Positions 40-16,890 of a stretch of DNA of 20,110 nucleotides are shown piece after piece. The stretch comes from a virus. The stretch is taken from positions 1 to 20,110 of the IMG/VR virus record IMGVR_UViG_3300022752_000490; one strand, given 5' to 3'. The number at the start of each line of letters is the position of its first letter. The stretch's first letter is position 1. The notes under the pieces are model-generated. The model was not told where the DNA came from and ran no database searches. It saw only the letters and a list, made by a program, of their open reading frames with translations. A program made the position numbers and the translations under genes.

Positions 40-1053
40 CTAATCATCTCTTTCTCCTTTAAACCACTGTTTACTATAAAGTCTTATTTTAAGAGCTGTT
101 TTGTGTTTTGAAGATAATATCATAGACAGTGTTCTTAGTTTTCCATACTTAACAATACTATCATTTATATCTTTGCAGTTGGACCAATCAGGAAAACTCA
201 CACTCCAATTTTGTTCAATGGCCTGTGCTACAATTTTAGGACCTTCGTGATCTCGATCTGGTACTACAATGACTTCTTTATTTAAGGAATTGATTAAGGA
301 GATCTGCTGAGAATTTAATTCGCTGCCTAGTATAGCCACACCATCTATGCTGATAGCGTCAAATGGTCCTTCAGATACTATGATAAATTTTCTTTCATAG
401 TTTTGATTATCAAAATTAAAAACATATCCAGGTTGTTGTTCACTGATATATTTAGGCTTATGGTCTGTGATTCGTCTAGCAGTATATCCTACAATTAGTC
501 CTTGATATCTAAATGGAATAATAACTCTATCTATATAATTTGGAGACCAATAAAAATCAAAATCGAATGGATTATCAAACCCTCTATTAACAACGTAATT
601 TATTATGCTAAGGTACTTTTCTACTAATTCTTTTGCTGGTTCTACTTCCATGATTTTAGCCCATTCGGTCAAGGGTTTAGCTAGTTCAGGTAGTTCTCTG
701 TTATCAAACTTTGGTATTAGGCTAGCATAATTATTTTTTTCTAATTCATCTTTAAGTTTCAGACTTTCAAAAGAACATTTGCTAATTAGGTCATCTGACA
801 CATTAATCCAGTGCAAGAATTTTTTAAATTTTAATGTAAGCATTCTACCAGATTGCCAACTAGTTTTAAAACCGCAATTAAAACAGTGATAGCTAATATG
901 ATCGCCGTTTAAGATAATTCCACCGCGTTGTCTGTTATCTTGTCCTGTGCCCATATGGTGACAACACACCGCATTAAAGCTGATCCAGCCACTGGGTGTG
1001 GTTTTTCTTTTGTAGGGCAGATGACTAAACACTGTGTCTATGATAAGGCTCAT
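40..1053 (-). CDS. 61: T4 gp61-like DNA primase
   Basis: Probable primase that makes RNA primers for lagging-strand synthesis with the phage helicase. The N-terminal part has a zinc-binding pattern: a Cys-x-His pair near residues 31-33 and a Cys-x-x-Cys (HCFNCGFK) near 56-63. The C-terminal part is a Toprim domain, with the EGPFDA acidic motif near residue 228, the VPDRDHEG Asp-x-Asp motif near 263, and a KDINDSIVKYG segment near 293 that matches the KDVND region of T4 gp61. The length, 337 residues, is very close to the 342 of T4 gp61. The ATG start is 9 bp after the stop of the virion gene, with no strong ribosome binding site. It is the last gene of the minus-strand run in this window. The primase call is strong; orthology to gp61 is inferred from architecture and the C-terminal match. 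Confidence 0.85.
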   Translation of the reverse strand: MSLIIDTVFSHLPYKRKTTPSGWISFNAVCCHHMGTGQDNRQRGGIILNGDHISYHCFNCGFKTSWQSGRMLTLKFKKFLHWINVSDDLISKCSFESLKLKDELEKNNYASLIPKFDNRELPELAKPLTEWAKIMEVEPAKELVEKYLSIINYVVNRGFDNPFDFDFYWSPNYIDRVIIPFRYQGLIVGYTARRITDHKPKYISEQQPGYVFNFDNQNYERKFIIVSEGPFDAISIDGVAILGSELNSQQISLINSLNKEVIVVPDRDHEGPKIVAQAIEQNWSVSFPDWSNCKDINDSIVKYGKLRTLSMILSSKHKTALKIRLYSKQWFKGERDD

Positions 1054-1888: not shown

Positions 1889-1896
1889 TATTTATG
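1889..1896 (-). promoter_or_regulatory. late promoter-like motif CATAAATA for the virion gene
   Basis: On the minus strand this reads CATAAATA, seven of eight bases of the T4 late consensus (the first base varies in many relatives). It lies about 20 bp upstream of the virion gene ATG at 1869. Its first bases are the complement of the ATG of the divergent forward gene. Confidence 0.4.
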
Positions 1897-2274
1897 GCTA
1901 AATTAAGAGACAATATACAACAACAGCTACCTTTTATCAGTGTTTTACATTATGGTGATGAAGAATACGTAGGAATTATCATTAATCAAGATCAACATGT
2001 TACCAGTTTTTTTGACCTTGCTATGATAAAGAACAATGAAGAAAAAAGCCTCCTATTGGAAGTAGGAGAAATATGGTGGTGGGAAAGTAATCGTCAGATA
2101 CCGATCAGTATATTTTGTCGTAAAGAAGTAGAGCCATTCAAATATGCCATAAAGACCTTCAACAGCAAGGATGTAAGGTTAATACTAGGGCCCACAGTAA
2201 ACTTATTAAATCTCACCATAAAACGAGTCAAGCGCAAACAGGTTCAATTAATCAGAGCGCCCAAGCGTATCTAA
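1894..2274 (+). CDS. conserved phage protein of unknown function
   Basis: A 126-residue protein, alone on the plus strand amid minus-strand genes. Features are an aromatic WWWES stretch near residue 61, an IPISIF strand near 70, and a basic C-terminus (KRVKRKQVQLIRAPKR, from about residue 110) that could contact nucleic acid. The FNSKDVRLILGP segment and the basic tail resemble a small protein I recall from T4-like cyanophages, with no known role. No good ribosome-binding site precedes the ATG; an exact late motif TATAAATA lies 42 bp upstream. Its TAA at 2272-2274 directly abuts the stop of the convergent gene, with no spacer, so no terminator lies between them. Function is not inferred. Confidence 0.75.
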   Translation: MAKLRDNIQQQLPFISVLHYGDEEYVGIIINQDQHVTSFFDLAMIKNNEEKSLLLEVGEIWWWESNRQIPISIFCRKEVEPFKYAIKTFNSKDVRLILGPTVNLLNLTIKRVKRKQVQLIRAPKRI

Positions 2275-2853
2275 TCAAGCATATTCGTAACTTATAGATT
2301 CGCAGATCAAGTTCATTTGTACAACAATAGCAGCAGCATAGGCAGTGGCATGACTTTTTTTAAAGTAGTATTCGTCACCTTCTGGTTTGGTCCATACTTC
2401 GTTCATCACCGTAGTCCAATCTTTGCCAATCAGATAGCGTTTCGCGGGGCGTATCAGGGCCAAAACTGCCGCTAGCTGGGGTATTGTCCTTGGTTTCATT
2501 TCTCTTAAGATCGAACCATGTCCGTTGACGTGAAAGAGCAAATTGACGAAATCGTCCTGTTCTAGTAGTTCCCATAATGGCTCCTGATTAAGTAGTAGGC
2601 TAAGATGTTGTTCATTTTTAATATCTTTATACACACTGGCATTTAAGAAATCGATTTTAAAGTATCCTCGTTGTTCTGCTGTACGATAATCAAGTGAACT
2701 CAAACCTGTAAGAGGATTATAAGGAATAGGCTGTACATAGATACCTGTATTGTGTGCTACAAGTTTATCCTTGTCCAGTCTACTGGCCTTTATGTGGGTA
2801 ATTTTATTCAAAATTTGATTTCTATCAAAGAAATCTATATCAATGTCAGGCAT
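2275..2853 (-). CDS. miniature DnaE (DNA polymerase III alpha)-like protein
   Basis: A 192-residue protein that strings together, in the correct order, the conserved blocks of the bacterial C-family replicative polymerase. It starts with MPDIDIDF (DnaE PDxDxDF, two catalytic aspartates). HNTGIYV follows at 34-40 (DnaE HxGGVVIAP region), then GYFKIDFLN at 63-71 (DnaE KFDFLG, third catalytic aspartate; here Asp68), LALIRPAK at 131-138 (DnaE ALFRPG) and YFKKSHATAYA at 163-173 (DnaE FNKSHSAAYA). Full DnaE is over 1,000 residues; the PHP, most finger, beta-binding and OB parts are absent. I recall similar short proteins in T4-like cyanophages but cannot verify this. The ATG overlaps the stop of the 56-residue gene (TAATG). 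Whether it polymerises, binds DNA or plays a structural role is open. Confidence 0.7.
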   Translation of the reverse strand: MPDIDIDFFDRNQILNKITHIKASRLDKDKLVAHNTGIYVQPIPYNPLTGLSSLDYRTAEQRGYFKIDFLNASVYKDIKNEQHLSLLLNQEPLWELLEQDDFVNLLFHVNGHGSILREMKPRTIPQLAAVLALIRPAKRYLIGKDWTTVMNEVWTKPEGDEYYFKKSHATAYAAAIVVQMNLICESISYEYA

Positions 2854-3023
2854 TAGTGAATAACCTTTGTTTCAAACAACATTAATGGTAAATGATCAGC
2901 TAGGTATTGAGCATAGGTTTCTGCGTCATCATCTGTGTCAAATCCACTTAGAACTACGGCAACAGTTCTATCCGAGTTATTAAACATAATTTCAATGTTT
3001 ATATCTGTATCTTTGTATATCAT
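2853..3023 (-). CDS. small protein of unknown function (56 aa)
   Basis: A 56-residue reading frame that exactly fills the space between its neighbours. Its ATG at 3023 overlaps the upstream zinc-finger gene's TGA by four bases (ATGA), and its TAA shares one base with the ATG of the DnaE-like gene (TAATG). The protein starts MIYKDTDINIEIMFNN and has a VAVVLSGFDTDDDAETYA segment near residue 21, followed by an amphipathic helix; it is acidic and has no membrane segment. Coupling on both sides and the absence of any other use of this 170-bp space make it a real gene in my view. I do not recognise the family. Confidence 0.7.
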   Translation of the reverse strand: MIYKDTDINIEIMFNNSDRTVAVVLSGFDTDDDAETYAQYLADHLPLMLFETKVIH

Positions 3024-3715
3024 AGCTCTGCCTCCTGCACTACCTGTTTTACCAAGTCAATATCCCAAGTTTGTCTATGAAACTTTTTGATCCATAAATT
3101 GGGATCTATAATTGTACTTATTGAAGAAAGCTGATCATCTCTAAAATTAGCCAGCATATCTTTGCCGGTAGGGCTATTCAATATCAGCCAAGGACTTACT
3201 TTACCATCTTTTATGTCAAATACAGCACGATTAGTGCTGACATATCTAAAGTAGTGATTCCACAGACTGTTAAAATCCTTAGCCCAAGATTCCATATGAT
3301 TTATAGATCTTTCCAGGGCAGTCTCCACGCTTTCTGTGTGTATTAGGTTTACTATATATTTTTGATAAAGATCCTCTCTGCACCAATGGTCCAATTTAAC
3401 TCCGCTAGTTACCACATAGTCTATAAATTTTTCAGGATAAAGTGGATTTACATTAGCAATAAAGCTGCCGAATTTCACAAAGGCAGTATAGTAAGGGCTT
3501 TTTGTAAACTCATCGTAGGTCTTTGTTTCATTCTGATTTTGTGTTAGTTGATAGAATCTATTATAAGTTTGGAATCCTGCTAGATTTGCCCTAGTATCTT
3601 TACTCATATATCTGCGTTTTTGTTCGCACATATGCACTGCCAATGTTTTTTCTTGAGTAAACTTAGATTTACAGTATCTACAAACAAATGGATTATTCAC
3701 AGAAAGTTGTAGCAT
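3020..3715 (-). CDS. C2HC zinc-finger protein of unknown function
   Basis: A 231-residue protein. The N-terminus holds a zinc-finger-like pattern, Cys12-x2-Cys15-x12-His28-x-Cys30, within FVCRYCKSKF and LAVHMCEQKRRY, followed by a basic KRRYM. The remainder is mostly helical and aromatic (for example LWNHYFRYV near residue 152, and FHRQTWDIDLVKQVV near the end), with no catalytic motif I know. Similar N-terminal fingers followed by CExKRRY occur in T4-like cyanophage proteins of unknown role, from memory. Its ATG is two bases after the stop of the clamp-loader-like gene, and its TGA overlaps the next ATG. A nucleic-acid-binding role in replication or late transcription is a guess from context. 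Confidence 0.7.
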   Translation of the reverse strand: MLQLSVNNPFVCRYCKSKFTQEKTLAVHMCEQKRRYMSKDTRANLAGFQTYNRFYQLTQNQNETKTYDEFTKSPYYTAFVKFGSFIANVNPLYPEKFIDYVVTSGVKLDHWCREDLYQKYIVNLIHTESVETALERSINHMESWAKDFNSLWNHYFRYVSTNRAVFDIKDGKVSPWLILNSPTGKDMLANFRDDQLSSISTIIDPNLWIKKFHRQTWDIDLVKQVVQEAEL

Positions 3716-3717
3716 GT

Positions 3718-4194
3718 TTAAATCAGATCTGCGATTTCTTTATCACTATATCCGTGATCTTTGGCCAGTTCTTTCAGCTCCTTTTTAGTATAAAGTTTGG
3801 CCATGAGATCAATTTCATCATCTTTACGATCAGGGTAAATTTCACTTAGAAACTTTGTTGATTTGTTCATGGCCTGATCCTTCTTTTTCATGCCTAACCA
3901 TTCGTGGAAGAATATTTTCTTGCTAGGATGATGGCACATACACAGTAACATCCATAATAATTTAGGATGCTTTTGTAAATCATTCCAATATTTATTAAAA
4001 TATTCATTAGTATAGAGTATGAAATGTCTTTGTATTTCTTTGTTCTGACCTTTCACATTGCTCACATATCTATTCAATAGATAAAAACTATTCTTCAAGT
4101 CCTTTCTTTCATTATCCGATAGTTCATCCCATAGAGGTTTGAAGTCCATATCTACAGCCGCTAGTTTTTCTTTTAAACTAAGTTTTTCACTCAT
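3718..4194 (-). CDS. possible gp62-like clamp-loader small subunit
   Basis: A 158-residue, highly charged helical protein. The order of conserved spots follows the short gp62 of marine T4-like phages: LLNRYVS near residue 39, then YTNEYFNKYW near 62 (the N-E-x-N spot), then KIFFHEWLGMKKKD near 93 (the RFSKW spot), and a C-terminal GYSDKEIADL. In T4, gp62 joins gp44 to load the gp45 clamp. No gp44 or gp45 gene is visible in the window, so context does not confirm this. The match is weak in sequence and could be chance similarity among helical proteins. Expression is probably coupled with the 83-residue gene upstream (9-bp gap) and the zinc-finger gene downstream (2-bp gap). Confidence 0.5.
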   Translation of the reverse strand: MSEKLSLKEKLAAVDMDFKPLWDELSDNERKDLKNSFYLLNRYVSNVKGQNKEIQRHFILYTNEYFNKYWNDLQKHPKLLWMLLCMCHHPSKKIFFHEWLGMKKKDQAMNKSTKFLSEIYPDRKDDEIDLMAKLYTKKELKELAKDHGYSDKEIADLI

Positions 4195-5320: not shown

Positions 5321-6784
5321 TTATTTCCAATCAATCTTGTCATGTGTAAAAGGATATCGAGCTTCCTTATAAAATTTTTTCCGTTGTGTAAGATGTCGTT
5401 TGGCAAACTTACAAGTACTGGTTATATCCCAGATTTGTACGAAGTCTTTATCTTCGGCCTTTCTAATGCCTCGCCCAATACTTTGTATAACCCTGACAAA
5501 GCTTTTTCCGGGTTCCAAAAGAACCAAATTAAAAATCCGAGGAATATTAATACCCACAGCGGCCACACCATAAGTCGCCACAATAATCTTGTTATCCACT
5601 GTTTTAATTTCATCATACTCTTCTTTTCGATCTTTGGTTTTTACTTCTCCTGATATGAACACTGAGTCTTTTAAAATTTCCACTAAATGTTTACCAGTAT
5701 CTAGTCTATTAACTAAGACCAATGTGTTTCCACTTTGTGATATACCTTGTACCATATTGGCAATATATCTAACTCTATCTTTGTCTGTTACCAAATATTT
5801 GTTTTCTTCTGCATAGGTTTTAAATTCTGGCAAATCGATTAGTTGAGCAACATTAACGTGACAATTGCTCAACACTCCTGTTTCTTGGAGTTCATATGCA
5901 CTTACACGGTTAATCAATGGTCCTATACTGGCAAAAATTGCTTGATTTTCATAATCTTCTTTAGGAACCGTGCCTGTTAGTCCCCAACGTATCGGAGCAT
6001 TAGAAAGATTCTGAGTTAATAGTTTTTTTAGCACTGCGGCCTTAGCCATATGTACTTCGTCCACGATCACTGTGGTAATATTTGATAAAAATTGATCAAG
6101 TAATTCCGCATCTTTCAAGCTATCTTTGCTTTTTTTATCTAGTATGTTAAGACTTTGCCAAGTGCATATTGTATGTGTTCTAGCTAATTCTTTACGATCC
6201 CCGTAATAGACACCAACATCTAATTTACAGTTGCGAAAGTCTTCTTCTGTTTGTTCTACTAGACTTTTATTTGGTACAATAGTAATTGTTCTTCCGTAAG
6301 GTTCGCACAATTTACTCAGAGTAGCAGTTGTTATTGTTTTACCAAATCCAGTTGCGATTTCTTGTAGACATTGTGGATTAGAAAGAAATTTATTAATAAC
6401 TTCTACTTGATCTTCACGTAATCTTATAGGCTGGCCTTGATAGATATGTCCTTCAGGCCAAGTTTGATCTTTCCAGTAATCTGTAGTAATTTTTTCAAAC
6501 TGAATATCAAAGGTATTTCTATGATCTTCAATCTCAGCAATATCAACATTAGATTTTTCCAATACATCTATTATTTTAGGTAGTTGATGTAGATATCCTG
6601 TACCTCCTAGGCCAAATAAGGTCAAGCTGCCATCCCATCTTCCAAGTTTATAAGCTGGTCGATATCTGGCAGTAGGATCGAGATACTTAAATGTATTTGA
6701 TAATTTTTTACGTACTTCTAAGGAGAGACCTTCTATTTTTAGATTAACCTCATCTCTTATAATTAGTTTACATGATGGCATCAT
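5321..6784 (-). CDS. uvsW: UvsW-like superfamily 2 helicase
   Basis: An ATP-dependent helicase/translocase. In T4, UvsW unwinds branched DNA and R-loops, regresses forks and helps switch replication from origin- to recombination-dependent mode. Numbered from the ATG at 6784, the Walker A motif ATGFGKT is at 144-150, DEVH at 242-245, LTGT at 269-272, and motif VI QSIGRGIRK at 434-442. The N-terminal region (NTFKYLDPTARYRP...LGRWDGSLTLF) matches the T4 UvsW substrate-binding domain (F.PRFRYGNWDGRIRLL). Length 487, versus about 500 in T4. The start MMPSCKLIIRDE has an AGGA site four bases upstream and overlaps the preceding gene by 17 bp; an earlier start at 6805 is less likely. It probably shares the promoter at 7965-7993. 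Confidence 0.9.
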   Translation of the reverse strand: MMPSCKLIIRDEVNLKIEGLSLEVRKKLSNTFKYLDPTARYRPAYKLGRWDGSLTLFGLGGTGYLHQLPKIIDVLEKSNVDIAEIEDHRNTFDIQFEKITTDYWKDQTWPEGHIYQGQPIRLREDQVEVINKFLSNPQCLQEIATGFGKTITTATLSKLCEPYGRTITIVPNKSLVEQTEEDFRNCKLDVGVYYGDRKELARTHTICTWQSLNILDKKSKDSLKDAELLDQFLSNITTVIVDEVHMAKAAVLKKLLTQNLSNAPIRWGLTGTVPKEDYENQAIFASIGPLINRVSAYELQETGVLSNCHVNVAQLIDLPEFKTYAEENKYLVTDKDRVRYIANMVQGISQSGNTLVLVNRLDTGKHLVEILKDSVFISGEVKTKDRKEEYDEIKTVDNKIIVATYGVAAVGINIPRIFNLVLLEPGKSFVRVIQSIGRGIRKAEDKDFVQIWDITSTCKFAKRHLTQRKKFYKEARYPFTHDKIDWK

Positions 6785-7958
6785 TAGTTCCTGATATAGA
6801 ACCAATAATAGGTTCTATTGTATTATAATAAATTTGTAAATCTACAGAACTACACCACTTGCTAGTTTTGCTTGATGTAAAGCTATTAGTATAACTGACT
6901 ACACTGTTAGGGTACCAATCACTGCGTAGAATAAACTTGGGTAATTGATTATTAGCAATAGCAACAATTAAGGAATTTTTATCTAAACGTTGATTTAAAT
7001 TATGTTCTGTGATATATTTGTTAAACATTATATTAGTATCTTTATTATTGTCAAATCTAAAGTATACTCTAATTTTTTCTTTATCTAACAAAGAATTTAC
7101 TGCTATATTTAAATTTTTGATAGCCTCTAATGATCTTAAACTATTATGACCGTCTAAAATCATTAATAATGGAAATCTTTTTAGATCACACAATGACTTT
7201 AAAATATTTTCAATTGTCTGATCCTGAGGTGAAATCCATATTTTAGCTTTTAATCTGTTAGCAAGCTTAAAAGTCAAAGACATATCAGTATTTTCGAAAT
7301 TATAGCGATATTGATATTTTATTCTTCTATCCAACAACAATAGTTGATTATCTATATTATCTCCTAGTTCCTGTTTTAAACAATTTAGAATAATAGGATT
7401 TAAGATACAGTCTATTTCATTTACAGAAAAAGATTTGTTTATGATATTATTAATTTGATTATAAAAATCAACTAAAGATTCTGAAATTTCAAACTTGTAG
7501 GGCCTTAATTTATCTAAGACTAATTTTATATTTTTTTCTGTAAAAGGAATGGAGAAAAGTCTATTAGATTTGTTTATAACATTACCTTGAATTGATTTAG
7601 TTAATTCTGTAAAACTGTTTTGGATACGACTATTATGTGTAAATTCAACAAAAAAATAATTCAATTCATTCTGTTTAGTATAGATTTTTTTGACTACCTG
7701 AAGAACTCTAAATGACTTAGACCATAATGGATTCTTAATGAGATCAAAGTCTTTGCCCAAGAAATTTAAAAATATGTTTTGATTTTCAATCATAATCTTT
7801 AGTAGCAAATTTCCTTGATTTTTGGTGAAAAAATTGCCACCTGTAACTTGCTTATGTAGACTAATTAAAATTTTCTTATCTCTGATAGGAATGTCAACAT
7901 TTTCAAGAAACTGATTTTTTTGTACTAAATCTATGAATAATTGATCTACAGTGTTCAT
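6768..7958 (-). CDS. uncharacterised 396-aa protein upstream of uvsW
   Basis: I do not recognise this protein. It is AT-rich, with many Asn, Lys, Ile and Leu residues. The C-terminal half holds alternating strands and helices: KAKIWISPQDQTIENI near 238, FPLLMILDGHNSLRSLEAI near 262, KIRVYFRFDNN near 295, then LPKFILRSDWYPNSVVSY near 337 and KWCSSVDLQIYY near 366. Nothing resembles a Walker, nuclease or polymerase motif. I faintly recall cyanophage proteins upstream of uvsW that end in a similar way. The gene's stop lies inside the uvsW start region (17-bp overlap), so the two are likely co-translated and may act together. Its promoter lies just upstream and would give an mRNA with almost no leader; no ribosome-binding site is visible before the ATG. 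Confidence 0.7.
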   Translation of the reverse strand: MNTVDQLFIDLVQKNQFLENVDIPIRDKKILISLHKQVTGGNFFTKNQGNLLLKIMIENQNIFLNFLGKDFDLIKNPLWSKSFRVLQVVKKIYTKQNELNYFFVEFTHNSRIQNSFTELTKSIQGNVINKSNRLFSIPFTEKNIKLVLDKLRPYKFEISESLVDFYNQINNIINKSFSVNEIDCILNPIILNCLKQELGDNIDNQLLLLDRRIKYQYRYNFENTDMSLTFKLANRLKAKIWISPQDQTIENILKSLCDLKRFPLLMILDGHNSLRSLEAIKNLNIAVNSLLDKEKIRVYFRFDNNKDTNIMFNKYITEHNLNQRLDKNSLIVAIANNQLPKFILRSDWYPNSVVSYTNSFTSSKTSKWCSSVDLQIYYNTIEPIIGSISGTNDAIM

Positions 7959-7997: not shown

Positions 7998-8843
7998 TTA
8001 CAATAAATTATCCAAAGGGTTTCCTTGAGAAATTTCTTCTAAAGTCCATTCGCAATGACAGATTTTTAATAACCATTCATTTTTGTCAACACTTTCAGGA
8101 TTTTCTAAATTTTCTAAATTTTTGATAGAAATTGGGTATGCGAGGCTGTCTTTTGAGGTATAAACAGGTATATTAGACAAGGCTGCTTGTATAGCAGTAT
8201 TACCTAAAAGATTTAAAACTATATGTGCTCTAGCAAAGTCTTCTACATGATCAAAGTCATCATAGGTTCCTGCTATTTTTTGAGGTATTCTTATTTCTGC
8301 CCCGATTCTTGGCAAGGATTTACACCATTCGAAGTCTCTAGGATGTGGTCTAAAAATAATTTTTCGATCAGTGTGTTTTTTTACTTCTTGTATGACATTT
8401 TCTAGCCATGTTTCTGGTTTTAGATTTTTGTTCCATTGTTGACTTTTAGAATGTTGTCCACAAATAAGCACATTTTCACCAAAATTATAGAGATTTTTTA
8501 GCTCAATACCTAATTTCCTTGGTCTATCTAAATCATAGTTTTCTTTATGATAAAAAAATCCTAAATTATTAATATGTCCAAGACCTACTCGCCAAGTTTT
8601 ACCCCTTAATAGACCACCCACTTCTAAAATTATAAGTTTTTTTCCCTGTTTTTTAGCTAAATCCCATATTTCTTTGTTAGCTGACATTCGGCCGTTCCAT
8701 AGTACCGACCATATTACAAAAACGTCAGCAGTTAAGTCATGTTCGACCACTTCATGGCCTAAACTTATAGCACCAAGACCAAAGGCCTTAAATACAGGAC
8801 CACTATTTAGAGCTCCGAATCGAGGAAAAATTGACACTTTCAT
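7998..8843 (-). CDS. KpsC/KpsS-like capsular polysaccharide glycosyltransferase
   Basis: A 281-residue GT-B-like protein of the kind related to capsule-export or Kdo-transfer proteins. Visible motifs: KHTDRKIIFRPHPRD at 156-170 (the R-P-H-P block), NLLGNTAIQAALSNIPVY at 211-228 (donor-binding S/T-x-A-x-x-A-L-x-G-x-P block, here with Asn for Gly), and a C-terminal CEWTLEE at 264-270. The same three blocks recur in the proteins encoded at 15985 and 16877. The N-terminal half (FPRFGALNSGPVFKAF) is a Rossmann-like first domain. The gene is divergent from the plus-strand sugar operon. Donor and acceptor are unknown. Confidence 0.65.
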   Translation of the reverse strand: MKVSIFPRFGALNSGPVFKAFGLGAISLGHEVVEHDLTADVFVIWSVLWNGRMSANKEIWDLAKKQGKKLIILEVGGLLRGKTWRVGLGHINNLGFFYHKENYDLDRPRKLGIELKNLYNFGENVLICGQHSKSQQWNKNLKPETWLENVIQEVKKHTDRKIIFRPHPRDFEWCKSLPRIGAEIRIPQKIAGTYDDFDHVEDFARAHIVLNLLGNTAIQAALSNIPVYTSKDSLAYPISIKNLENLENPESVDKNEWLLKICHCEWTLEEISQGNPLDNLL

Positions 8844-8859
8844 GATGTTGATAAGTAAT
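8831..8859 (+). promoter_or_regulatory. candidate sigma70 promoter for the plus-strand glycan operon
   Basis: TTGACA (8831-8836, exact) with a 17-base spacer to AGTAAT (8854-8859, four of six). Transcription would start near 8866, giving a leader of about 16 bases with GGTGGA just before the ATG at 8882. The -35 box lies inside the first codons of the divergent gene. The -10 is weak, so this is tentative. Confidence 0.35.
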
Positions 8860-8872
8860 AATAGTATTTAAT
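8860..8872 (-). promoter_or_regulatory. late promoter-like element for the KpsS-like gene
   Basis: On the minus strand ATTAAATACTATT, 11 of 13 bases of the extended T4 late consensus TATAAATACTATT, ending 16 bp before the ATG at 8843. The two mismatches fall in the first two positions, so support is moderate at best. Confidence 0.3.
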
Positions 8873-8881
8873 GGTGGATAG

Positions 8882-9718
8882 ATGTCAAAATATACAGTTG
8901 TCACAACTTTTAATGCCAAAGGCTATGATCAATATGCTCAAAAATTTCTAAGGACCTTTGATGAAACTTGGCCTAAGGATGTAAACATATGTGTATATAC
9001 AGAAAATTGTGAAATTTCAGAAAATTTCACAAATCTAAAAGTAATAGATCTACATCAAGCTAGTGCTGATCTTCTAAGATTCAAAATGACTTGGAAAAAT
9101 GTACCTAAGGCTAATGGAGATGTTACAGATGACCCAATACGATCAAAAAGGGGTGATGCCGGTAAGGGATTTAAATGGGATGCTATACGATTTAGTCACA
9201 AAGTCTATAGTATTTTTCATTGTGCTGATAACATCAGTTCTGAAATATTAATTTGGATGGATGCTGACATGATTTGTCATAGCAAAATCACTTTAGAACA
9301 GATAAGTCATCTTATACCTATGAATGTAGATATTTGTTATCTAGGTCGTGAGGGCAAATATTCAGAATGTGGTTTATATTCTATGAATTTAGCCAGTAAA
9401 ATGACTTTAGATTTCCTAAAAGAATTTAAACGTATGTATGACCAAGCTGAACAAGGAATTTTTCTTCTAGACGAGTGGCATGACAGTTTTGTTTTTGATG
9501 AAGTAATGAAAAAATTTCCTCATTTAAGAAAACATAACTGGAGCGCACATTTATCAGACCTTAGACCAACAAAAAGACATTCAAAAGGCGAAGGGCATCC
9601 TTTAATAAATTGCGATTGGGGGAAATATCTTGACCATCTTAAAGGATCACGTAAAAATACTGGTAAAAGTCTGCCAACAGATTTAATTATTTCTAGAAAT
9701 GAAAAATATTGGCAATGA
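8882..9718 (+). CDS. GT-A-type glycosyltransferase
   Basis: A 278-residue protein, first gene of the plus-strand operon. It has a nucleotide-sugar fold: the N-terminal YTVVTTFNAKGYD strand and turn, the KGFKWDAIRFSHKVYSI segment at 95-111, and the LIWMDADMI motif with Asp127-Ala-Asp129 as the metal-binding DxD. A further acidic block, DEWHDSFVFDEV at 197-208, probably binds the acceptor. The C-terminal DHLKGSRK is rich in base. Similar proteins occur in marine phages, from memory. Ribosome-binding site GGTGGA precedes the ATG. Its TGA overlaps the next ATG (ATGA). A perfect hairpin sits about 125 bases into the gene. Donor and acceptor are unknown. Confidence 0.7.
   Translation: MSKYTVVTTFNAKGYDQYAQKFLRTFDETWPKDVNICVYTENCEISENFTNLKVIDLHQASADLLRFKMTWKNVPKANGDVTDDPIRSKRGDAGKGFKWDAIRFSHKVYSIFHCADNISSEILIWMDADMICHSKITLEQISHLIPMNVDICYLGREGKYSECGLYSMNLASKMTLDFLKEFKRMYDQAEQGIFLLDEWHDSFVFDEVMKKFPHLRKHNWSAHLSDLRPTKRHSKGEGHPLINCDWGKYLDHLKGSRKNTGKSLPTDLIISRNEKYWQ
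9007..9032 (+). repeat. perfect 11-bp inverted repeat inside the first operon gene
   Basis: TTGTGAAATTT (9007-9017) and AAATTTCACAA (9022-9032), CAGA loop. No T run follows, so it is not a classical terminator. Confidence 0.4.
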
Positions 9719-10365
9719 AACAGCATTTTGGTCTTTATTTTCCTGAGTACGACACGCATTTTCCAAGAATGTTAGAAAAAAGTCTCAATAAAGACAATGT
9801 CTTAAGGTATCAATGGCGTCAACGTGATCATGCCATAAACATTTGCCATAATAAACGTATCTGTATTGATATTGGAGCTAATGTAGGACTCTGGAGTTGT
9901 GATTTAGTCTATAAGTTTGAACAGGTTATAGCTTTTGAGCCTGTAGAAGAATTTAGAGAATGTTTTAGGCGCAATGTGAAGAAAAATAACTATATTATAC
10001 ATCCTGTGGCCTTAGGAAAAACAGAATCATTTATCAATATGAATATAACAGAAGGAAATACCGGGCATAGTCATGTTGATCTCTCAAGTTTAGGTCAAGG
10101 TAACATACCTTTACGTACTTTAGATAGTTTTAATTTACTTAATGTAGATTTGATAAAAATAGACGTAGAAGGCTATGAAGAAGAAATTTTATTAGGTGCT
10201 ATGAATACAATAAAAATTAATAAACCTGTTCTAGTAGTTGAGCAGCAACATCATGAATATAAAAACGACATGATTAATAAGCCTGCTATTAAGATTTTAG
10301 AAAGTTGGGGTTATATGGTACAAGCACAGTATAATAAAGATTGGATTTTACAATGTCAAATTTAA
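9715..10365 (+). CDS. FkbM-family methyltransferase
   Basis: A 216-residue SAM-dependent methyltransferase. Motif I, CIDIGANVGLW, is at 50-60, the acidic post-I loop IAFEPVEEF at 72-80, and the FkbM hallmark LIKIDVEGYEEEIL at 146-159; the LRTLDSF segment before it is also typical of the family. FkbM enzymes methylate sugar hydroxyls or other small groups, so a glycan O-methylation is plausible. The ATG at 9715 gives a four-base ATGA overlap with the glycosyltransferase stop; a TTG two codons earlier is less likely. The last codons overlap the next gene by 13 bp. Confidence 0.85.
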   Translation: MKQHFGLYFPEYDTHFPRMLEKSLNKDNVLRYQWRQRDHAINICHNKRICIDIGANVGLWSCDLVYKFEQVIAFEPVEEFRECFRRNVKKNNYIIHPVALGKTESFINMNITEGNTGHSHVDLSSLGQGNIPLRTLDSFNLLNVDLIKIDVEGYEEEILLGAMNTIKINKPVLVVEQQHHEYKNDMINKPAIKILESWGYMVQAQYNKDWILQCQI

Positions 10366-11318
10366 AAATAAGATTTTTTAGTGATAGTTTTAAAAGTAAA
10401 CGGGCAAGCCATCGTCTAAGAGGTGATGTTGTTAGTCAAGCTCTTAGAGAATTAGGGTATGATGCTAAGGTAGTAAGAGATTTTTCAGATGTTGACTCAA
10501 ATACTATTGTAATTTTTCTAAAAAGAAGTTTACCTCCTTCTATTCAACGTGCTAAAGATCTGGGTGCTAAAACTGTCTATGATTTATGTGAAAATAAGTT
10601 TGATGAAAAAGAAGAATATTGTCCTAATTGCGCTCTAGTAGATGTAGTCAGCGTAAACAGTGAACAAATGGCTATTAGCACTAAGAATTACACTGAAAAA
10701 GACAGCATATTAATGCCAGATCCTTTCGAAAGGCCAATTTTAGCTCCTAGATTTCGTCCTGGTAAAACTTTAAACATTTTGTGGTTTGGGTCTCAGTCTA
10801 GTTTTAAATTTTTACCCCTAATCGAAGTTTGGCAACGTTTAGAAAAAGAAATAGGAAATTATACCTATCACATGATTATGTCAAAACCTCAAAGATTATT
10901 AGGTAAGATGCTTAAGAGACAGAGTAAAGGTGAAATTAAAGGTATTAATTTGGATAAGGTTAAAATGTATGATTGGTCTTGGGAACTACAAGGGCAGTTA
11001 TTAAATGATTGTGATTTGGTCTTGATGCCTGTGATAACTGAAAATTATAGAACAGATACTAAAAGTGCTAATCGAGTGATTGATAGTTTAATTTCAGGAA
11101 GATACGTAATAACCAGTCCCTTAGCAAGTTATTTGGAATTTGCTGATTATACATGGCAAGATCCTGATTACATCGCTGGAATTAAACATGCCTTAGATAA
11201 TCCTAGTCTTATACTCTCGAAAATTAAAGAAGGACAAAAGCATACATTAGAAAATTTTAGTCCTAAAAAATTGTCCAAGGCTTGGATAGAAGAGATTATA
11301 GCCAAGGTAGGTTTATAA
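10353..11318 (+). CDS. GT-B (GT4-like) glycosyltransferase
   Basis: A 321-residue protein with the two-domain layout of retaining glycosyltransferases. The N-terminal domain has SKRASHRLRGDVV and VIFLKRSLPPSIQ; the second begins near LNILWFGSQS at 140-149 and holds the sugar-nucleotide-binding block, LVLMPVITE at 222-230 followed by KSANRVIDSLISGRYVITSP at 237-256 and the YLEFADYTW tail. This resembles the marine phage and bacterial GT4-like proteins that carry K-S-x-N-R...G-x-x-V. The ATG at 10353 is preferred over an upstream TTG. Its TAA overlaps the next ATG by one base. Substrate unknown. Confidence 0.7.
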   Translation: MSNLKIRFFSDSFKSKRASHRLRGDVVSQALRELGYDAKVVRDFSDVDSNTIVIFLKRSLPPSIQRAKDLGAKTVYDLCENKFDEKEEYCPNCALVDVVSVNSEQMAISTKNYTEKDSILMPDPFERPILAPRFRPGKTLNILWFGSQSSFKFLPLIEVWQRLEKEIGNYTYHMIMSKPQRLLGKMLKRQSKGEIKGINLDKVKMYDWSWELQGQLLNDCDLVLMPVITENYRTDTKSANRVIDSLISGRYVITSPLASYLEFADYTWQDPDYIAGIKHALDNPSLILSKIKEGQKHTLENFSPKKLSKAWIEEIIAKVGL

Positions 11319-11905
11319 TGGGCAGTCCTAATGACTTAATCTATATTAAAGAAACATGCCCTAGAGTAGATGGCGCTATCTTAGAAATAGGAGCAAGAGA
11401 AAACACCACTGGTTTTAGAACCTATTTCTCAGATAAGTGTACGGAATATATTGGAACTGATCTAGTAGAAGGTCATGATGTTGACATAGTCTGTGATTTA
11501 ATGAATTTTGATAATCCTTTACCAAAAAATTATTTCGATCTTGTTATATGCTGTAGTGTTATGGAACACGTACCAGCTCCTTGGATTTTAGCCGATAATA
11601 TATCTAATCTTGTTCGTCCAGGTGGTAAATTATATATCTGTGTTCCTTGGTCTTGGAGATATCATCCTTATCCAGAGGACTATTATAGATTTAGTTTTAG
11701 AGCTATCGAATATCTTTACCCTCACTTTAACTGGGAAAGATATGCTTATTCGACCGAAAACGAAGGAGATATTAAATGGGTGGAAAAGTCTGCTATAAGC
11801 GATCGTAAGATGGTCTATGCTCTACATGACGATTCTGGTCGTAAAATAAAAAAATATCTTTCTTATTTGTTGATTAACATGATAGGAACTAAAAATGTTA
11901 TCTGA
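11318..11905 (+). CDS. class I SAM-dependent methyltransferase
   Basis: A 195-residue protein of the Methyltransf_11 type. Motif I is LEIGARE (22-28), followed by the acidic IGTDLVEGHDVD, the motif IV region FDLVICCSVMEHVP (73-86) and the post-IV RPGGKLYICVPW (100-111). The start is set at the ATG in TAATG, overlapping the preceding stop by one base. The next gene's ATG lies inside its last codons (11-bp overlap). Target is not predictable; position argues for a sugar or glycan intermediate. Confidence 0.8.
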   Translation: MGSPNDLIYIKETCPRVDGAILEIGARENTTGFRTYFSDKCTEYIGTDLVEGHDVDIVCDLMNFDNPLPKNYFDLVICCSVMEHVPAPWILADNISNLVRPGGKLYICVPWSWRYHPYPEDYYRFSFRAIEYLYPHFNWERYAYSTENEGDIKWVEKSAISDRKMVYALHDDSGRKIKKYLSYLLINMIGTKNVI

Positions 11906-12452
11906 AATAATTGCTGATAGATTATCTAAAAATTTGCCTATTAAACTTCATTTAGGTTGCGGGCATCAAAAATTACAAGGGTATCTAAATGTAGACGGCG
12001 AGTTTATGAATTATGATAAGGAGATTATTATACATGATATCAGTCAACCTTTTCCTATACCAAATAACTGTGTTGATGAAATTTTAACTGTTCATGTTAT
12101 AGAACATTTTAGTAGAGAAATTCCTCCTATAATGTTTAAAGAATTTCTTAGAATATGTAAACCTGGAGGATTTGTGGCTACAGAGTGGCCAGATTTTCTT
12201 AAAATGTGTAAAGAAGTTGTTAAAAATCCTGATTGTTTTTGGACTACAGATAAGAGATTAGTAAAGCGAACAATTTCTGGAATATATGGTGACTATGCTA
12301 GATATCCAGACCCAGTTATGCTACATAAATGGGGGTACAGCGAAGAAAGTATGATAAAATTACTTACAGAAATTGGGTTTAGCACCGTTCACGCAGAACC
12401 TAACAGATATCCTAAAAGTGGTATAGATAGCAGAGTTATTGCGTACAAATAA
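11895..12452 (+). CDS. class I SAM-dependent methyltransferase
   Basis: A 185-residue methyltransferase of a different subtype from its neighbour: LHLGCGHQKLQGYLNVD (18-34, motif I), HDISQPFPIPNN (47-58), the LTVHVIEHF core (64-72), and ICKPGGFVATEWPD (87-100). The HLGCG...GYLNVD pattern is common in predicted sugar or lipid methyltransferases of glycan loci, with a late HKWGYS segment (144-149) typical of that group. Overlaps both neighbours by a few bases, which implies coupled translation. Substrate unknown. Confidence 0.8.
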   Translation: MLSEIIADRLSKNLPIKLHLGCGHQKLQGYLNVDGEFMNYDKEIIIHDISQPFPIPNNCVDEILTVHVIEHFSREIPPIMFKEFLRICKPGGFVATEWPDFLKMCKEVVKNPDCFWTTDKRLVKRTISGIYGDYARYPDPVMLHKWGYSEESMIKLLTEIGFSTVHAEPNRYPKSGIDSRVIAYK

Positions 12453-13195
12453 TGGCAGCTAAGATAGTTAAAGAATTAAAAGGTTTCTCAGGAAACCAAA
12501 TCTTTTTAATGGGTAAGCATGGAAATTTTTTTGTAAGGAAAATAGGAAAGATAGACAGAAACATAGAACGTATGACCGCTCTATCAGCTGAATTTCCTGT
12601 TCCTAAAATCGTAAAATTCTCAAAAGAAGCTATTGACATGGAATATATTCATGGCTTGGATATTAAAACTTTTCTTAAAACTAATAACTATCGAATATTA
12701 CTAAATTTTATTATAAAAATATTAGATAAGTTTAAGGCAGATAATATCATAAAGGATTATTCAAAAATCTATAAACAAAAATTAAATGAAGTAGAGTTAG
12801 CGGAAGATATAGTTTTTACCAAAGACGAGCTATATGAAAAATTACCTAAAACTTTACCATCAGGGCAATATCACGGAGATTTTACATTAGAGAATATAAT
12901 TTATTCTGAAAATAAAGGTTTTTATCTAATAGACTGTGTTCAAATAGAATACGATTCATATATTTTTGATATAGCTAAGATGAGACAAGATTTAGAATTA
13001 GGTTGGTTTATTAGAAATGAAGATTATTTTGAAATACAAACTAAATTTATCCAACAAGAACTATTAGAAAAATATCCAGAAGCTGCTAGTAATTATATTC
13101 TAATTTTAATGCTATTAAGAGTATACAAATACACCACTAGAGAAAGTTTTGAACGTAATTTTTTAACACAAGGAATTAATAAATTATGGAAATAA
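12452..13195 (+). CDS. APH/choline-kinase-like phosphotransferase
   Basis: A 247-residue small-molecule kinase. The catalytic loop is YHGDFTLENI (140-149: His-Gly-Asp-x4-Asn), followed by the metal-binding FYLIDCVQIEYD (157-168, Asp161 as the DFG-type aspartate) and SYIFDIAKM (169-177). At the N-terminus a glycine-poor loop GFSGNQIFLM (11-20) and a possible lysine in FFVRKIG (26-32) form the ATP site. This family includes aminoglycoside kinases, choline kinases (LicA type) and sugar kinases; marker genes here point to the last two rather than resistance. Its last codons overlap the nucleotidyltransferase gene by 10 bp, so both products are probably made together. Confidence 0.75.
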   Translation: MAAKIVKELKGFSGNQIFLMGKHGNFFVRKIGKIDRNIERMTALSAEFPVPKIVKFSKEAIDMEYIHGLDIKTFLKTNNYRILLNFIIKILDKFKADNIIKDYSKIYKQKLNEVELAEDIVFTKDELYEKLPKTLPSGQYHGDFTLENIIYSENKGFYLIDCVQIEYDSYIFDIAKMRQDLELGWFIRNEDYFEIQTKFIQQELLEKYPEAASNYILILMLLRVYKYTTRESFERNFLTQGINKLWK

Positions 13196-13875
13196 TTATG
13201 CCCGCTGCGGGTTTATCCACAAGATTTCCTAACATGCGACCAAAATATATGTTAACTGACAATACAGGAAAAATGATGTTTGAAAAATCATTAGCTCCTT
13301 ATCTGGGAAAGTATCATATTACCATGGGTATTTTACAACAACATCAAGACGAATACCAGATAGCAGATTATGTTAAGAAGGAATATAGTAATGTCATTAA
13401 TATTATAATTTTACCATCTTTAACAAAAGGACCTGCCGATACTGTAAATCAGATTATTAACCAAGCAGGTATATCAGGCGAAATTTTGATTCGAGATTGT
13501 GATAGTTTCTTTGACCATGAACCACAAGAAGGCAATTATGTTTGTGTTTCTGACATACAGGATCATGATATTCTTAAACGACTAAGTTCTAAAAGTTTTG
13601 TAGTTGTAAACAATCAAGGCATTTTAACAAGCATAAAAGAAAAACAAGTAATATCTAGTAAATTTTGTGTAGGTGGGTACAAATTTGAAGAAGCAGATCT
13701 TTTTACCAGAACTTTTGAAAAATTAATAGCATGGCACGACAAGGAAATATTTGTAAGTCATATAATCGAAGATAATCTAAATAATCTACATATTTTTAAA
13801 GAAAATCTTGTAACTAACTATATTGATGTAGGCACAGCAGAAGATTGGTTGGACTATAATAAAGTTAACAATTAA
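13186..13875 (+). CDS. nucleotidyltransferase (sugar-1-phosphate or phosphocholine type)
   Basis: A 229-residue GT-A-type nucleotidyltransferase. The signature MPAAGLSTRF (5-14) plus the PKYML lysine (Lys20) forms the NTP site, KGPADTV (81-87) is the base-binding region, RDCDSFF (103-109) holds the metal-binding aspartates, CVGGYKF (161-167) is the sugar-side loop, and NYIDVGTAEDW (211-221) is the C-terminal metal motif. Such enzymes make NDP-sugars or CDP-choline-like molecules. Next to the kinase, the pair recalls LicA/LicC logic (kinase then cytidylyltransferase), but the sequence alone cannot choose choline over a sugar. Confidence 0.8.
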   Translation: MEIIMPAAGLSTRFPNMRPKYMLTDNTGKMMFEKSLAPYLGKYHITMGILQQHQDEYQIADYVKKEYSNVINIIILPSLTKGPADTVNQIINQAGISGEILIRDCDSFFDHEPQEGNYVCVSDIQDHDILKRLSSKSFVVVNNQGILTSIKEKQVISSKFCVGGYKFEEADLFTRTFEKLIAWHDKEIFVSHIIEDNLNNLHIFKENLVTNYIDVGTAEDWLDYNKVNN

Positions 13876-13877
13876 TT

Positions 13878-14729
13878 ATGTCATTGGCTATTTTTTACAA
13901 CGGTGATAAAAGACATAATCTCAATATCACCTTAGAAAATCACGATAAATTATTTAATAAATTAAATGAGTTGACACCTATAAAAATTTATTGGTTTACA
14001 AAGGATGATCCTGAAAGGGGCTTTTGTCCTTATGAAGAAGGTAACATTCATGATGATAAAGTATATCGTAGAGGGCAAGGTGGAGGAATACAGATATGGG
14101 ACTTTTTAAGAAGTTGCGAAAGAACTACCGAGCCATTTGTGATGAGAATGAGAACTGATACTTGGTTTACAGATACTAGTATAGAAATTATACTTGACGA
14201 ACTGCGTGAAATTTTAAACAATCGAACTGATATAGCTTACTTTGGTAGTGACTGGATACATGAGAACGCAGGAAAGATAAATCAAAAAATACAGGTTATT
14301 AATGGTACTGCTCCAGGAGTTCAAGATTTTGTAATATTAGCTAGAAGAAATAAATTAAAACCTAGTAATGAAATTATTGACTATATTAATTTTTTGCCAG
14401 CTAAAAAACGACGTAGTGGCAATAATTTGTTTAAACTTTTAATTCCAATGCACCAAGAAGATGGTTTATGGGTTCAAGAAGTCAACGCCTATAGAATTTT
14501 ATGCCAAATTTGGCTTGTGAGAAAGACCTATCAAAATTATCCTAGTGATATGGAAGTATGTAAAGATTATATTCAAAGCTATATTTTAGATGACAAGTCA
14601 GAAGTAGGAAAGAAAACCTTTATTATTCCACATCCTATGCAGGATGCTGTAGATTGGTGGAGAGCCCAACAAAGATGGAATAAACTTGACTTAGATATAA
14701 AGGATTTTAAAAGATGGCAATTGCCCTAG
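13878..14729 (+). CDS. glycosyltransferase-like protein, first of a tandem paralogous pair
   Basis: A 283-residue protein of unclear family. The hallmark blocks are GQGGGIQIWDFL (66-77), VMRMRTDTWFTDTS (88-101, with Arg-Thr-Asp as a possible nucleotide-sugar site), QDFVILARRN (149-158), KKRRSGNNLF (176-185) and CQIWLVRKTY (209-218). The Arg-x-Asp block recalls WavE-type LPS-synthesis proteins, hence the tentative call. The next gene carries the same blocks in the same order. Two bases separate it from the nucleotidyltransferase, and it overlaps its paralogue by 16 bp. Compared with the paralogue it has a longer insertion after the first block and a unique C-terminal segment ending DAVDWWRAQQRWNK. 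Confidence 0.55.
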   Translation: MSLAIFYNGDKRHNLNITLENHDKLFNKLNELTPIKIYWFTKDDPERGFCPYEEGNIHDDKVYRRGQGGGIQIWDFLRSCERTTEPFVMRMRTDTWFTDTSIEIILDELREILNNRTDIAYFGSDWIHENAGKINQKIQVINGTAPGVQDFVILARRNKLKPSNEIIDYINFLPAKKRRSGNNLFKLLIPMHQEDGLWVQEVNAYRILCQIWLVRKTYQNYPSDMEVCKDYIQSYILDDKSEVGKKTFIIPHPMQDAVDWWRAQQRWNKLDLDIKDFKRWQLP

Positions 14730-15391
14730 TATATATTGGTCAAAATAGATTTTTTTCAACCGCTCAAAAGAATCATCAAGAATTAATAAACAAGTTAAAA
14801 TCTAAGCATGAATTAAATGTTTATAATTTTATTAAATCTCAAGACGATGCGACCTGTCCATTTAATAGCAGCGGGGGAATTCAAGTATGGGACTTTTTAA
14901 ATGCCATTGACTTAACTAGCGAAGAAATTCTAATCAAATTTAGAACAGATTTATGGTTTACTCAAACTTCTATGTTAATTTTACAAAAAGAATTGGATAA
15001 AGTTTTAAGAGGAGAACTTGATACTGTATTTTTAGGACTAGACTTTTTAAATGGTTACAATAAAATTAAAATGTATACTGATTTTAAAGAAACTAAAAAG
15101 GTCACAGACTTTGTTATAATTACAAAAAGAAATGTATTGAGAAATAGAGAGGATATTGTTAGAGATCTAACAGGGGTTAAAAAGAAAAGTGGTAATCAAA
15201 TGTTTAAATCTATAATAGATGAAAATGCTATGGCATTATCAGTAAGTTGTCAAATTTATCTATTAAGAAAAGATTATACAGATCCAGAAAACTACATAAT
15301 TTATAAAGATTGGACTAGTGAATATCATAAAAGTCAAGAGTCACAGCTATGGGTAAGTGAGAATCCTAGAGTTATACGGAAAGAGTTTTAA
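14714..15391 (+). CDS. glycosyltransferase-like protein, second of a tandem paralogous pair
   Basis: A 225-residue paralogue of the preceding protein: SSGGIQVWDFL (52-62), IKFRTDLWFTQTS (74-86), TDFVIITKRN (131-140), KKKSGNQMFK (156-165), and CQIYLLRKDY (179-188). It lacks the long C-terminal part of its neighbour and has the compact form of the family. Both copies keep the Arg-Thr-Asp-x-Trp-Phe-Thr block, so both are probably active, perhaps on different acceptors. The last base of its stop is the first of the next ATG (TAATG). Family and reaction remain uncertain. Confidence 0.55.
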   Translation: MAIALVYIGQNRFFSTAQKNHQELINKLKSKHELNVYNFIKSQDDATCPFNSSGGIQVWDFLNAIDLTSEEILIKFRTDLWFTQTSMLILQKELDKVLRGELDTVFLGLDFLNGYNKIKMYTDFKETKKVTDFVIITKRNVLRNREDIVRDLTGVKKKSGNQMFKSIIDENAMALSVSCQIYLLRKDYTDPENYIIYKDWTSEYHKSQESQLWVSENPRVIRKEF

Positions 15392-15993
15392 TGTTTAGTG
15401 ATTATTTTTATACCAGTATAGAAATTGGAAAAAGATTTCAGAAAACAAATACTTCATGGGGAGGTGATGACTGTAAAAATTATCATAATCAAATACGTGT
15501 TTTAATGGACAAATATCAAGCAAAAACATTATTAGACTTTGGTTGTGGTAAAGGTCGGCAGTATGTTAACCTAGTTCCTTACGGGTTACCCTACGATAAA
15601 ACAACAGAACCTATGACATTTCAAACACGGATTAATGCCCAAGAAGTTTATAAGTACGATCCTTGCGTGGAAGAATTTAGTACAGAACCTTGTGGTCAAA
15701 TTTTTGATGCTGTAATTTGTACTCAAGTTTTGGGCAGTATTCCTGATATAGACATGAAAAATTTTGCTAATAAGTTAGCTGGATATGCTAGAGAATTCGT
15801 TTTTATTGGTTTACATAATCCTTTCAAGCCCATTAAGAGAAAAAAAATGATGTATGATTCTAAATACATCAGTTATCCTCGATCAGTTGATTGGTATATA
15901 AAACAATTTGAGCATATTACAAGACCTGAAATATATTGGTGGTTTAGAGATTATGAAACAGAATATAATCATTGGTACTATTCGCTAATTTAG
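15391..15993 (+). CDS. class I SAM-dependent methyltransferase (last gene of the plus operon)
   Basis: A 200-residue methyltransferase. Motif I is TLLDFGCGKGRQY (46-58); an acidic YKYDPCVEEF (87-96) and FDAVICTQVLGSIP (105-118) follow. An insertion, YGLPYDKTTEP, between motif I and II is unusual. The LHNPFKPIKRKKMMYDSKY segment near 141 is basic and might contact the acceptor. Its 3' end overlaps the convergent KpsS-like gene by 9 bp. Methylation of a glycan intermediate is inferred from context; the SAM fold is seen directly. Confidence 0.75.
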   Translation: MFSDYFYTSIEIGKRFQKTNTSWGGDDCKNYHNQIRVLMDKYQAKTLLDFGCGKGRQYVNLVPYGLPYDKTTEPMTFQTRINAQEVYKYDPCVEEFSTEPCGQIFDAVICTQVLGSIPDIDMKNFANKLAGYAREFVFIGLHNPFKPIKRKKMMYDSKYISYPRSVDWYIKQFEHITRPEIYWWFRDYETEYNHWYYSLI

Positions 15994-16029
15994 ATATGGT
16001 AAAAATTTCTGATAAATTAGACCTTTTTT
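15985..16029 (+). terminator. weak candidate terminator of the plus operon
   Basis: CTAATTTA (15985-15992) and TAAATTAG (16013-16020) form an 8-bp inverted repeat with a 20-base loop, followed by a six-T run at 16024-16029. The stem is AT-only except for its ends, the loop is long, and the site overlaps the 3' end of both convergent genes, so this is tentative. Confidence 0.25.
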
Positions 16030-16890
16030 ACTTTCTTGATCTGTCCAATGACAAGCAGACAAATCATTAATCCATTGAGTTCTATCATATGAATATGGTT
16101 CGTTAATAGAATCAATATTTCGGTTAGCTACATCCCAACAAACTGAACTAGAATCGTCTACCCATAAATGTACACCTGACATGATAGCTGCTACACCACT
16201 ACTGCTATTAAACACAAACGCTCGTTTAGCATTTTGTAAATCTTGTAATAATGGTGTACTTACACTATTACTGATATAGACACCTTTTTGTTTAAGATGT
16301 GATAAATCTGAAATCTTCCCAGGATGAGGTCGTAGCATAATAGGATCATTATTAAATCTACGTATTTTATTAATTTTGTCTTCTGCCCATTTTACAGGAT
16401 TTAAACCTTTCATTCCCCATCCACCGTCTCTTTGAATTAGTAATAAGTTATATTCTCCGCTATTTTTCCAAGGAGCCATGTGTAAATTAAAATCTCTCTG
16501 TATTTGTAACCATTTATCATTATTGCTATTTTTATTAGCATACTGACCTTTGTCATATTCGACGCTGTTTATGCTGTAGCGTAAGTACAAACTTTCTGTA
16601 TCAATAAATTTAAAACAATTAGCATCTATAGACATTGTATGATCCATATTGTCTTTCTGTCGGTTTACAATTTCGGCTCTAAATTTAATATTTGGTGTAC
16701 TAAGTATAGGACTAGGCCAACCTAGAATAACAGCCAATTTTGCCGGAATAAATCTTAGGTTATCTTCTATGTGTACAGACGCACCAGAGACTCTTGCTCC
16801 ATGAGCAAAAGCCAACAGAGTATCTATTTTTCTTCCTGCCGTTTGTTTTTGTAATGAACTTAGATAAACGACTACATCAAGTTTCTTCAT
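15985..16890 (-). CDS. KpsS-like capsular polysaccharide glycosyltransferase
   Basis: A 301-residue protein paralogous to the one at 7998 and to the C-terminal half of the upstream fusion. It shows NDPIMLRPHPGK (181-192), FVFNSSSGVAAIMSGVHLWV (225-244, donor-binding block) and CHWTDQES (280-287). The N-terminal domain (TLLAFAHGARVSGASVH) lacks known motifs. Its start overlaps the stop of the fusion gene by 14 bp, so the two may be made together. It differs from the 7998 copy by a longer middle, ending in LIYQKFLPYLN. Role in capping or exporting a glycan is inferred. Confidence 0.6.
   Translation of the reverse strand: MKKLDVVVYLSSLQKQTAGRKIDTLLAFAHGARVSGASVHIEDNLRFIPAKLAVILGWPSPILSTPNIKFRAEIVNRQKDNMDHTMSIDANCFKFIDTESLYLRYSINSVEYDKGQYANKNSNNDKWLQIQRDFNLHMAPWKNSGEYNLLLIQRDGGWGMKGLNPVKWAEDKINKIRRFNNDPIMLRPHPGKISDLSHLKQKGVYISNSVSTPLLQDLQNAKRAFVFNSSSGVAAIMSGVHLWVDDSSSVCWDVANRNIDSINEPYSYDRTQWINDLSACHWTDQESKKGLIYQKFLPYLN

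Follow-up and report, generated by a model that had tools for sequence, protein, structure and literature searches.

We present evidence that a 192-residue open reading frame in an environmental virus encodes the C-terminal unit (C-unit) of a minimal nucleotidyl transferase of the C family (DNA polymerase III alpha) that is split over two genes in group-2.2-type jumbo phages, a reading to which we assign a probability of roughly 0.7. The window, i.e. the whole stretch of DNA analysed here, comprises 20,110 nucleotides and corresponds to positions 1-20,110 of IMG/VR virus record IMGVR_UViG_3300022752_000490. A split minimal Pol III alpha was previously predicted for group 2.2 jumbo phages (Iyer et al. 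2021, Viruses 13:63; PMC7824862), with NTP-binding and Mg2+/template-binding units as two proteins from distant loci and in the same phages (e.g. Atu_ph07), which also carry a family-B polymerase. The window gene is a new copy of this enzyme and, with 34-52% identity to the aligned C-units of cultured phages, a new environmental member; the PHROGs equivalents of the N-terminal unit (N-unit) and the C-unit are phrog_11127 and phrog_11778, respectively. What we add to the 2021 prediction is the position of the junction (393|399 in DnaE numbering), absence of the thumb as judged by motif spacing, the distribution among environmental contigs and the lack of any PHP or HhH match genome-wide in relatives. 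Experimental work on the split enzyme was not found in the literature searched.

The open reading frame starts with an ATG at 2853 and its stop codon ends at 2275, giving a product that reads MPDIDIDF at its start and ISYEYA at its end. Along it lie five blocks which can be aligned with positions in E. coli DnaE:

2275..2853, minus strand: C-terminal unit of split minimal DNA polymerase III alpha (predicted), comprising the latter part of the palm and shortened fingers; 192 aa, phrog_11778
2830..2853, minus strand: block 1, MPDIDIDF, from residue 1 (E. coli DnaE M399); metal-binding D3 and D5 correspond to D401 and D403
2743..2754, minus strand: block 2, HNTG (within HNTGIYV), from residue 34 (E. 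coli DnaE H511 region)
2644..2667, minus strand: block 3, GYFKIDFL; K66 and metal-binding D68 correspond to E. coli K553 and D555
2440..2463, minus strand: block 4, LALIRPAK, equivalent to VALFRPGP in the fingers, from residue 131 (E. coli DnaE V635)
2335..2364, minus strand: block 5, FKKSHATAYA, from residue 164 (E. coli DnaE F756); H168 corresponds to the steric-gate H760

Block 3, taken as YFKIDFLN, aligns residue 64 here with L551 of E. coli DnaE. D401, D403 and D555 coordinate the catalytic magnesium and are absolutely conserved across the C family (PMC3919608), while H760 has been proposed as a steric gate that keeps out ribonucleotides (PMC8485763). Across 81 distinct aligned family members, with identities down to 34%, D3, D5, D7, K66, D68, R135 and H168 are all invariant and so are, among others, I6, H34, P136, K138 and Y172. 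A previous sequence-only reading of this DNA had proposed that the protein keeps five DnaE blocks in order together with the three catalytic aspartates; both proposals are confirmed by the alignment with DnaE, and the aspartates (D3, D5, D68) prove to be conserved throughout the homologues. That the five-block match is more than chance is supported by the match of the protein to phrog_11778 ('DNA polymerase'; E = 9.8e-68, residues 3-186) and by the rarity of the ordered-motif pattern, which occurs in 103 of 4,458 ORFs (>=100 aa, from the fetched loci), all of them members of the C-unit family or large DnaE-type ORFs. Coupling of the start codon to the upstream gene, also proposed before, is evident from a TAATG overlap between the stop of a 56-aa ORF and the C-unit start, and the same kind of -2 start/stop overlap recurs in 34 of the 69 family members that were scored. 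As for the annotation of this family, the Atu_ph07 copy (L085, 11992-12567; RefSeq FDI40_gp074) is annotated from 12073, whereas the motif-bearing frame opens at 11992; since the annotated start lies downstream of PDIDIDF, the annotated protein probably lacks two of its three catalytic aspartates.

In support of homology to DnaE, an AlphaFold model of the C-unit (mean pLDDT 88.6), computed from an alignment of the window protein with 70 relatives, recovered DnaE/PolC entries in all of the first 12 places of a Foldseek search, albeit with a modest best E-value (1.1e-3). Upon structural realignment the top 14 entries were all bacterial Pol III alpha or PolC (best match: Z 9.5, 188 residues, 3.8 A), while the next entry scored Z 3.4. 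Residues 1-190 of the model span 461-841 in Taq, 419-811 in M. tuberculosis, 400-784 in E. coli and 970-1363 in PolC. Profile searches agree with this: the C-unit profile found M. tuberculosis DnaE1 among solved structures (4.5e-4) in four collinear blocks, and hhalign against a DnaE alignment gave 97.7% probability over residues 1-192. With Foldseek E-values that are weak for the C-unit and for the N-unit model (1.1e-2) alike, it is consistency and ranking that carry the fold case; on these grounds, DnaE homology and a superposable palm-like core, as the previous reading had it, hold up. Judging by the superposition together with the aligned motifs, D3, D5 and D68 would cluster in space.

Several parts of the bacterial enzyme are absent from the C-unit. 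The spacing between D403 and H511 is 108 residues in DnaE and 29 here, a loss of about 79 ahead of block 2 that, in terms of sequence spacing, appears to match the thumb, which we take to lie at around residues 433-510 of E. coli DnaE (Lamers 2006 structure). Similarly, the RP and SH motifs are 121 residues apart in DnaE and 33 here, so that some 88 fingers residues are gone, and the LRRAMGKK stretch (DnaE 708) is missing. Neither a GRGS loop nor a PHP domain nor a clamp- or tau-binding region was found in the 192 residues. With PHP domain and GRGS loop both lacking, the C-unit on its own is unable to build the known dNTP site, and a stand-alone mini-DnaE is ruled out, the GRGS loop being found on a second gene. 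Hence, the 'shrunken DnaE' of the previous reading was correct as to ancestry yet not as to completeness: the protein begins at the first catalytic motif and leaves GRGS to another gene. Binding of the 192-aa protein to the clamp and a role as a decoy of the host polymerase, both suggested before, are not supported by any evidence we found.

The second gene is exemplified by GAP32_323, a 172-aa protein annotated as DNA polymerase III alpha, which matches PF07733 and phrog_11127; the C-unit of the same phage is GAP32_282. The C-terminus of GAP32_323 (...GRGSSVSSYCLYLIGLHLVDSIKYDLDVNEFLKW) takes the correspondence with DnaE as far as residue 393, and the C-unit picks it up again at 399. Consistent with this, the N-unit profile matched E. 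coli DnaE (2.1e-5) with the match ending at residue 393, and an AlphaFold model of the N-unit (pLDDT 91.9) aligned with DnaE/PolC at Z 7.9-11.9 and with nothing else above Z 2.4. The ranges covered by N-unit and C-unit abut without overlap in E. coli DnaE (276-393|400-784) and are arranged likewise in M. tuberculosis (303-413|419-811), Taq (293-455|461-841) and PolC (822-964|970-1363), the step from N-unit end to C-unit start being six or seven residues in each of the four enzymes. GRGS is invariant in both N-unit alignments, and the three aspartates are all absent from the N-unit. CBB_328 and GAP32_323, both labelled 'DNA polymerase III alpha', represent the counterpart of the C-unit in this predicted enzyme and differ from the window gene in that they have GRGS without the three aspartates and lie beside gp44 rather than primase. 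The CBB authors took the N-unit for a truncated alpha subunit (PMC5259590), the Atu_ph07 authors list a Pol III alpha subunit, gp316 (PMC6102473), which we find to be the N-unit, and PF07733 marks 51.9% of one marine jumbo phage cluster (PMC9123017). Compared with cellular DnaE/PolC, the palm catalytic triad, K553, the steric-gate H760 and the palm plus fingers fold are shared, but where the cellular enzyme unites PHP, palm, thumb, fingers and GRGS in one polypeptide, the phage enzyme is split, has fingers some 88 residues shorter, and no PHP, thumb, (HhH)2 or OB parts were found for it.

Two observations concern the N-unit itself. Its front of about 65 residues (residues 1-65, e.g. L134:6001-6504) is confidently predicted and stands at the place of the DnaE PHP domain, without a match to any solved structure. 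In Vibrio phage 2.275.O (L093, 5001-5516), the N-unit is annotated from 5148 while its frame and homology start near 5001.

Homologues covering at least 80% of the C-unit were found in 63 phage records, and a scan of viral contigs returned at least 556 relatives. All ten jumbo phage records examined that are complete or nearly so (Phosso, Paride, GAP32, Atu_ph07, CBB, SCTP-2, XacN1, Vibrio 2.275.O, whose record is marked partial, RAS14 and RaK2) carry both halves, as do five out of five viral contigs above 200 kb; shorter contigs often hold one half only, as expected of fragments. Among the matches listed, 59 of 60 phage records with a C-unit also have the N-unit, the exception being a 109-kb record. 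The 20,110-base record of the window, a fragment, contains no N-unit, and we predict that the phage has its own copy outside these 20 kb. No fused ORF occurs in 160 viral loci (80 around the N-unit and 80 around the C-unit), and ORFs matching both units were cellular DnaE only. Nor did a scan of genome contigs reveal a relative in cellular genomes other than DnaE-type genes, with about 30% identity within residues 34-137. On contig G038, a 408-aa frame matches the C-unit weakly; the gene looks unrelated, and the match was taken as chance. PHP and HHH_6 (HhH) domains gave no match in 14 related genomes, and a second fingers gene was not found in the genomes searched, where the sole fingers match was the C-unit. 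Sequence distances of N-unit and C-unit correlate only moderately (r = 0.73), a value obtained without a control and one that shared ancestry alone can give. A family-B polymerase accompanies both halves in 15 of 15 related genomes. The previous reading had called a C-family fragment unexpected because T4-like phages replicate with a B-family enzyme; co-existence of the two families is borne out in these relatives, but for group 2.2 jumbo phages it had already been described in 2021 (PMC7824862).

The C-unit lies in a conserved set of genes, which in the window and in 84 loci with a C-unit is made up as follows:

40..1053, minus strand: DNA primase (phrog_47, Toprim), a member of this replication module; primase in 68/84 loci
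1894..2274, plus strand: 126-aa convergent gene (phrog_11637), conserved neighbour; 82/84 loci by best match
2853..3023, minus strand: 56-aa upstream ORF, no family; homologue near the C-unit in 41/84 loci
3020..3715, minus strand: 231-aa zinc-finger-like protein (phrog_11058); neighbour in 80/84 loci
3718..4194, minus strand: 158-aa neighbour (phrog_11758); 79/84 loci
5321..6805, minus strand: UvsW-type DNA helicase, marking the upstream limit of the conserved module; UvsW in 61/84 loci

In addition, a 268-aa protein is found near the C-unit in 74/84 loci. Annotated jumbo phages show the same gene order, with a DnaB-type helicase beyond the primase, and in most of them the N-unit is located near the gp44 clamp loader. 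The surroundings of both units point to the replication fork, bearing in mind that proximity is not function. The 158-aa neighbour had previously been thought to be clamp-loader-like, but no Pfam, PHROG-function, PDB or clamp-loader structure match backs this identity, and it is the N-unit which in relatives adjoins gp44; the neighbour may still be kin to gp62. The 231-aa phrog_11058 protein, the most constant upstream neighbour, has an invariant C-x2-C...H-x-C near its N-terminus and is a possible DNA-binding partner. An invariant WWWESNR motif (WWWESNRQ in the window) characterises the 126-aa phrog_11637 protein.

Could the C-unit be what is left of a bacterial dnaE that was captured and is now decaying? 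It does correspond to just a small portion of a large protein from bacteria, and its partner half was called 'truncated' by the CBB annotators (PMC5259590). Against decay, dN/dS has a median of 0.15 over the 232 pairs whose dS was usable, the length is constant at 188-214 aa and the motifs are intact in 81 distinct members, the same neighbourhood is kept in about 80 loci, and there is a partner with complementary limits. This refutes decay, to which we give next to no weight, and it upholds the view of the previous reading that the gene is not broken. A different scenario sees a catalytically dead C-family relic kept for protein contacts, be it as a decoy of the host polymerase or as a scaffold of the phage replisome. 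Thumb, PHP and part of the fingers, all of which cellular Pol III needs, are missing, and the phage relatives already own a family-B replicase. However, aspartates, lysine and steric-gate histidine are invariant in 81 divergent proteins, and so is GRGS in the partner. Moreover, the host-facing clamp- and tau-binding regions are exactly the parts that are missing, so the decoy once suggested for this gene is improbable: active-site residues were kept, host-binding parts were not. A dead relic of either kind therefore seems unlikely.

Ranked just behind it, and unlikely as well, is an active nucleotidyl transferase that does not carry out templated DNA synthesis and acts instead in terminal transfer, in nucleotide addition to RNA or protein, or in phosphorolytic or nuclease editing. 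The pol-beta-type palm fold is common to many nucleotidyl transferases, and the thumb that grips the duplex is missing here. There is also a precedent in the X family, some bacterial members of which are reported to be exonucleases without polymerase activity (PMC9226535). Speaking against such an enzyme, the steric gate against ribonucleotides is retained together with its fingers helix, and the gene sits within a primase-helicase-UvsW module.

We favour the split nucleotidyl transferase. Its C-unit would bring the aspartates that bind metal, the lysine used in catalysis and that portion of the palm which binds the template, along with shortened fingers bearing the steric-gate histidine. The N-unit, some 170 aa encoded elsewhere in the genome, would contribute the palm front, with its GRGS loop holding the triphosphate of the incoming nucleotide. 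Joined across the break between DnaE residues 393 and 399, the halves (~360 aa) may rebuild a pol-beta-like palm plus part of the fingers, lacking PHP, thumb, HhH and clamp-binding parts. The two halves probably assemble and carry out nucleotidyl transfer; forming one palm, they would bind Mg2+ and dNTP and extend a primer. A point that counts against a split polymerase is the distance between the genes, which ranges from about 15 kb (XacN1, RAS14) to more than 180 kb (G008, Phosso) and is odd for obligate subunits. In addition, loss of the thumb and of ~88 fingers residues including LRRAMGKK might abolish polymerisation.

As to its role, lack of a thumb and of clamp-binding parts should make the enzyme distributive, which is why a brief job, for instance the extension of RNA primers or the filling of gaps, fits best. 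Only tentatively, then, do we suggest a distributive auxiliary DNA polymerase that works with primase, helicase and the family-B replicase in one of these tasks. Slightly more doubtful still is the narrower notion of a two-subunit thumbless C-family polymerase of ~360 residues that is dedicated to primer extension or gap filling and hands over to the family-B replicase; the pair is possibly the smallest C-family polymerase. If true, this would be a viral parallel to the hand-over from DnaE to PolC or from Pol alpha to Pol delta and would bring together in a single replisome two replicative polymerase families that are not related. If the halves form an active enzyme, they would reveal how small a part of the bacterial replicase fold suffices for DNA synthesis, and that polymerases of the C and B families can coexist in the same viral replisome. 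The split enzyme also bears on the proposal that minimal forms of this type resemble Pol III ancestors (PMC7824862). With junction, conserved residues and cultured phages now identified, the question is directly testable.

Finally, the replication/recombination module of the window contains an island (7998-19248) of glycosyl-, methyl- and nucleotidyl-transferase-like genes, which sits between UvsW (5321-6805) and a UvsY-like gene (19257-19712) and includes:

9709-10365: methyltransferase
13186-13875: NTP-transferase-like gene
18499-19248: heptose adenylyltransferase-like gene with a cupin-like tail
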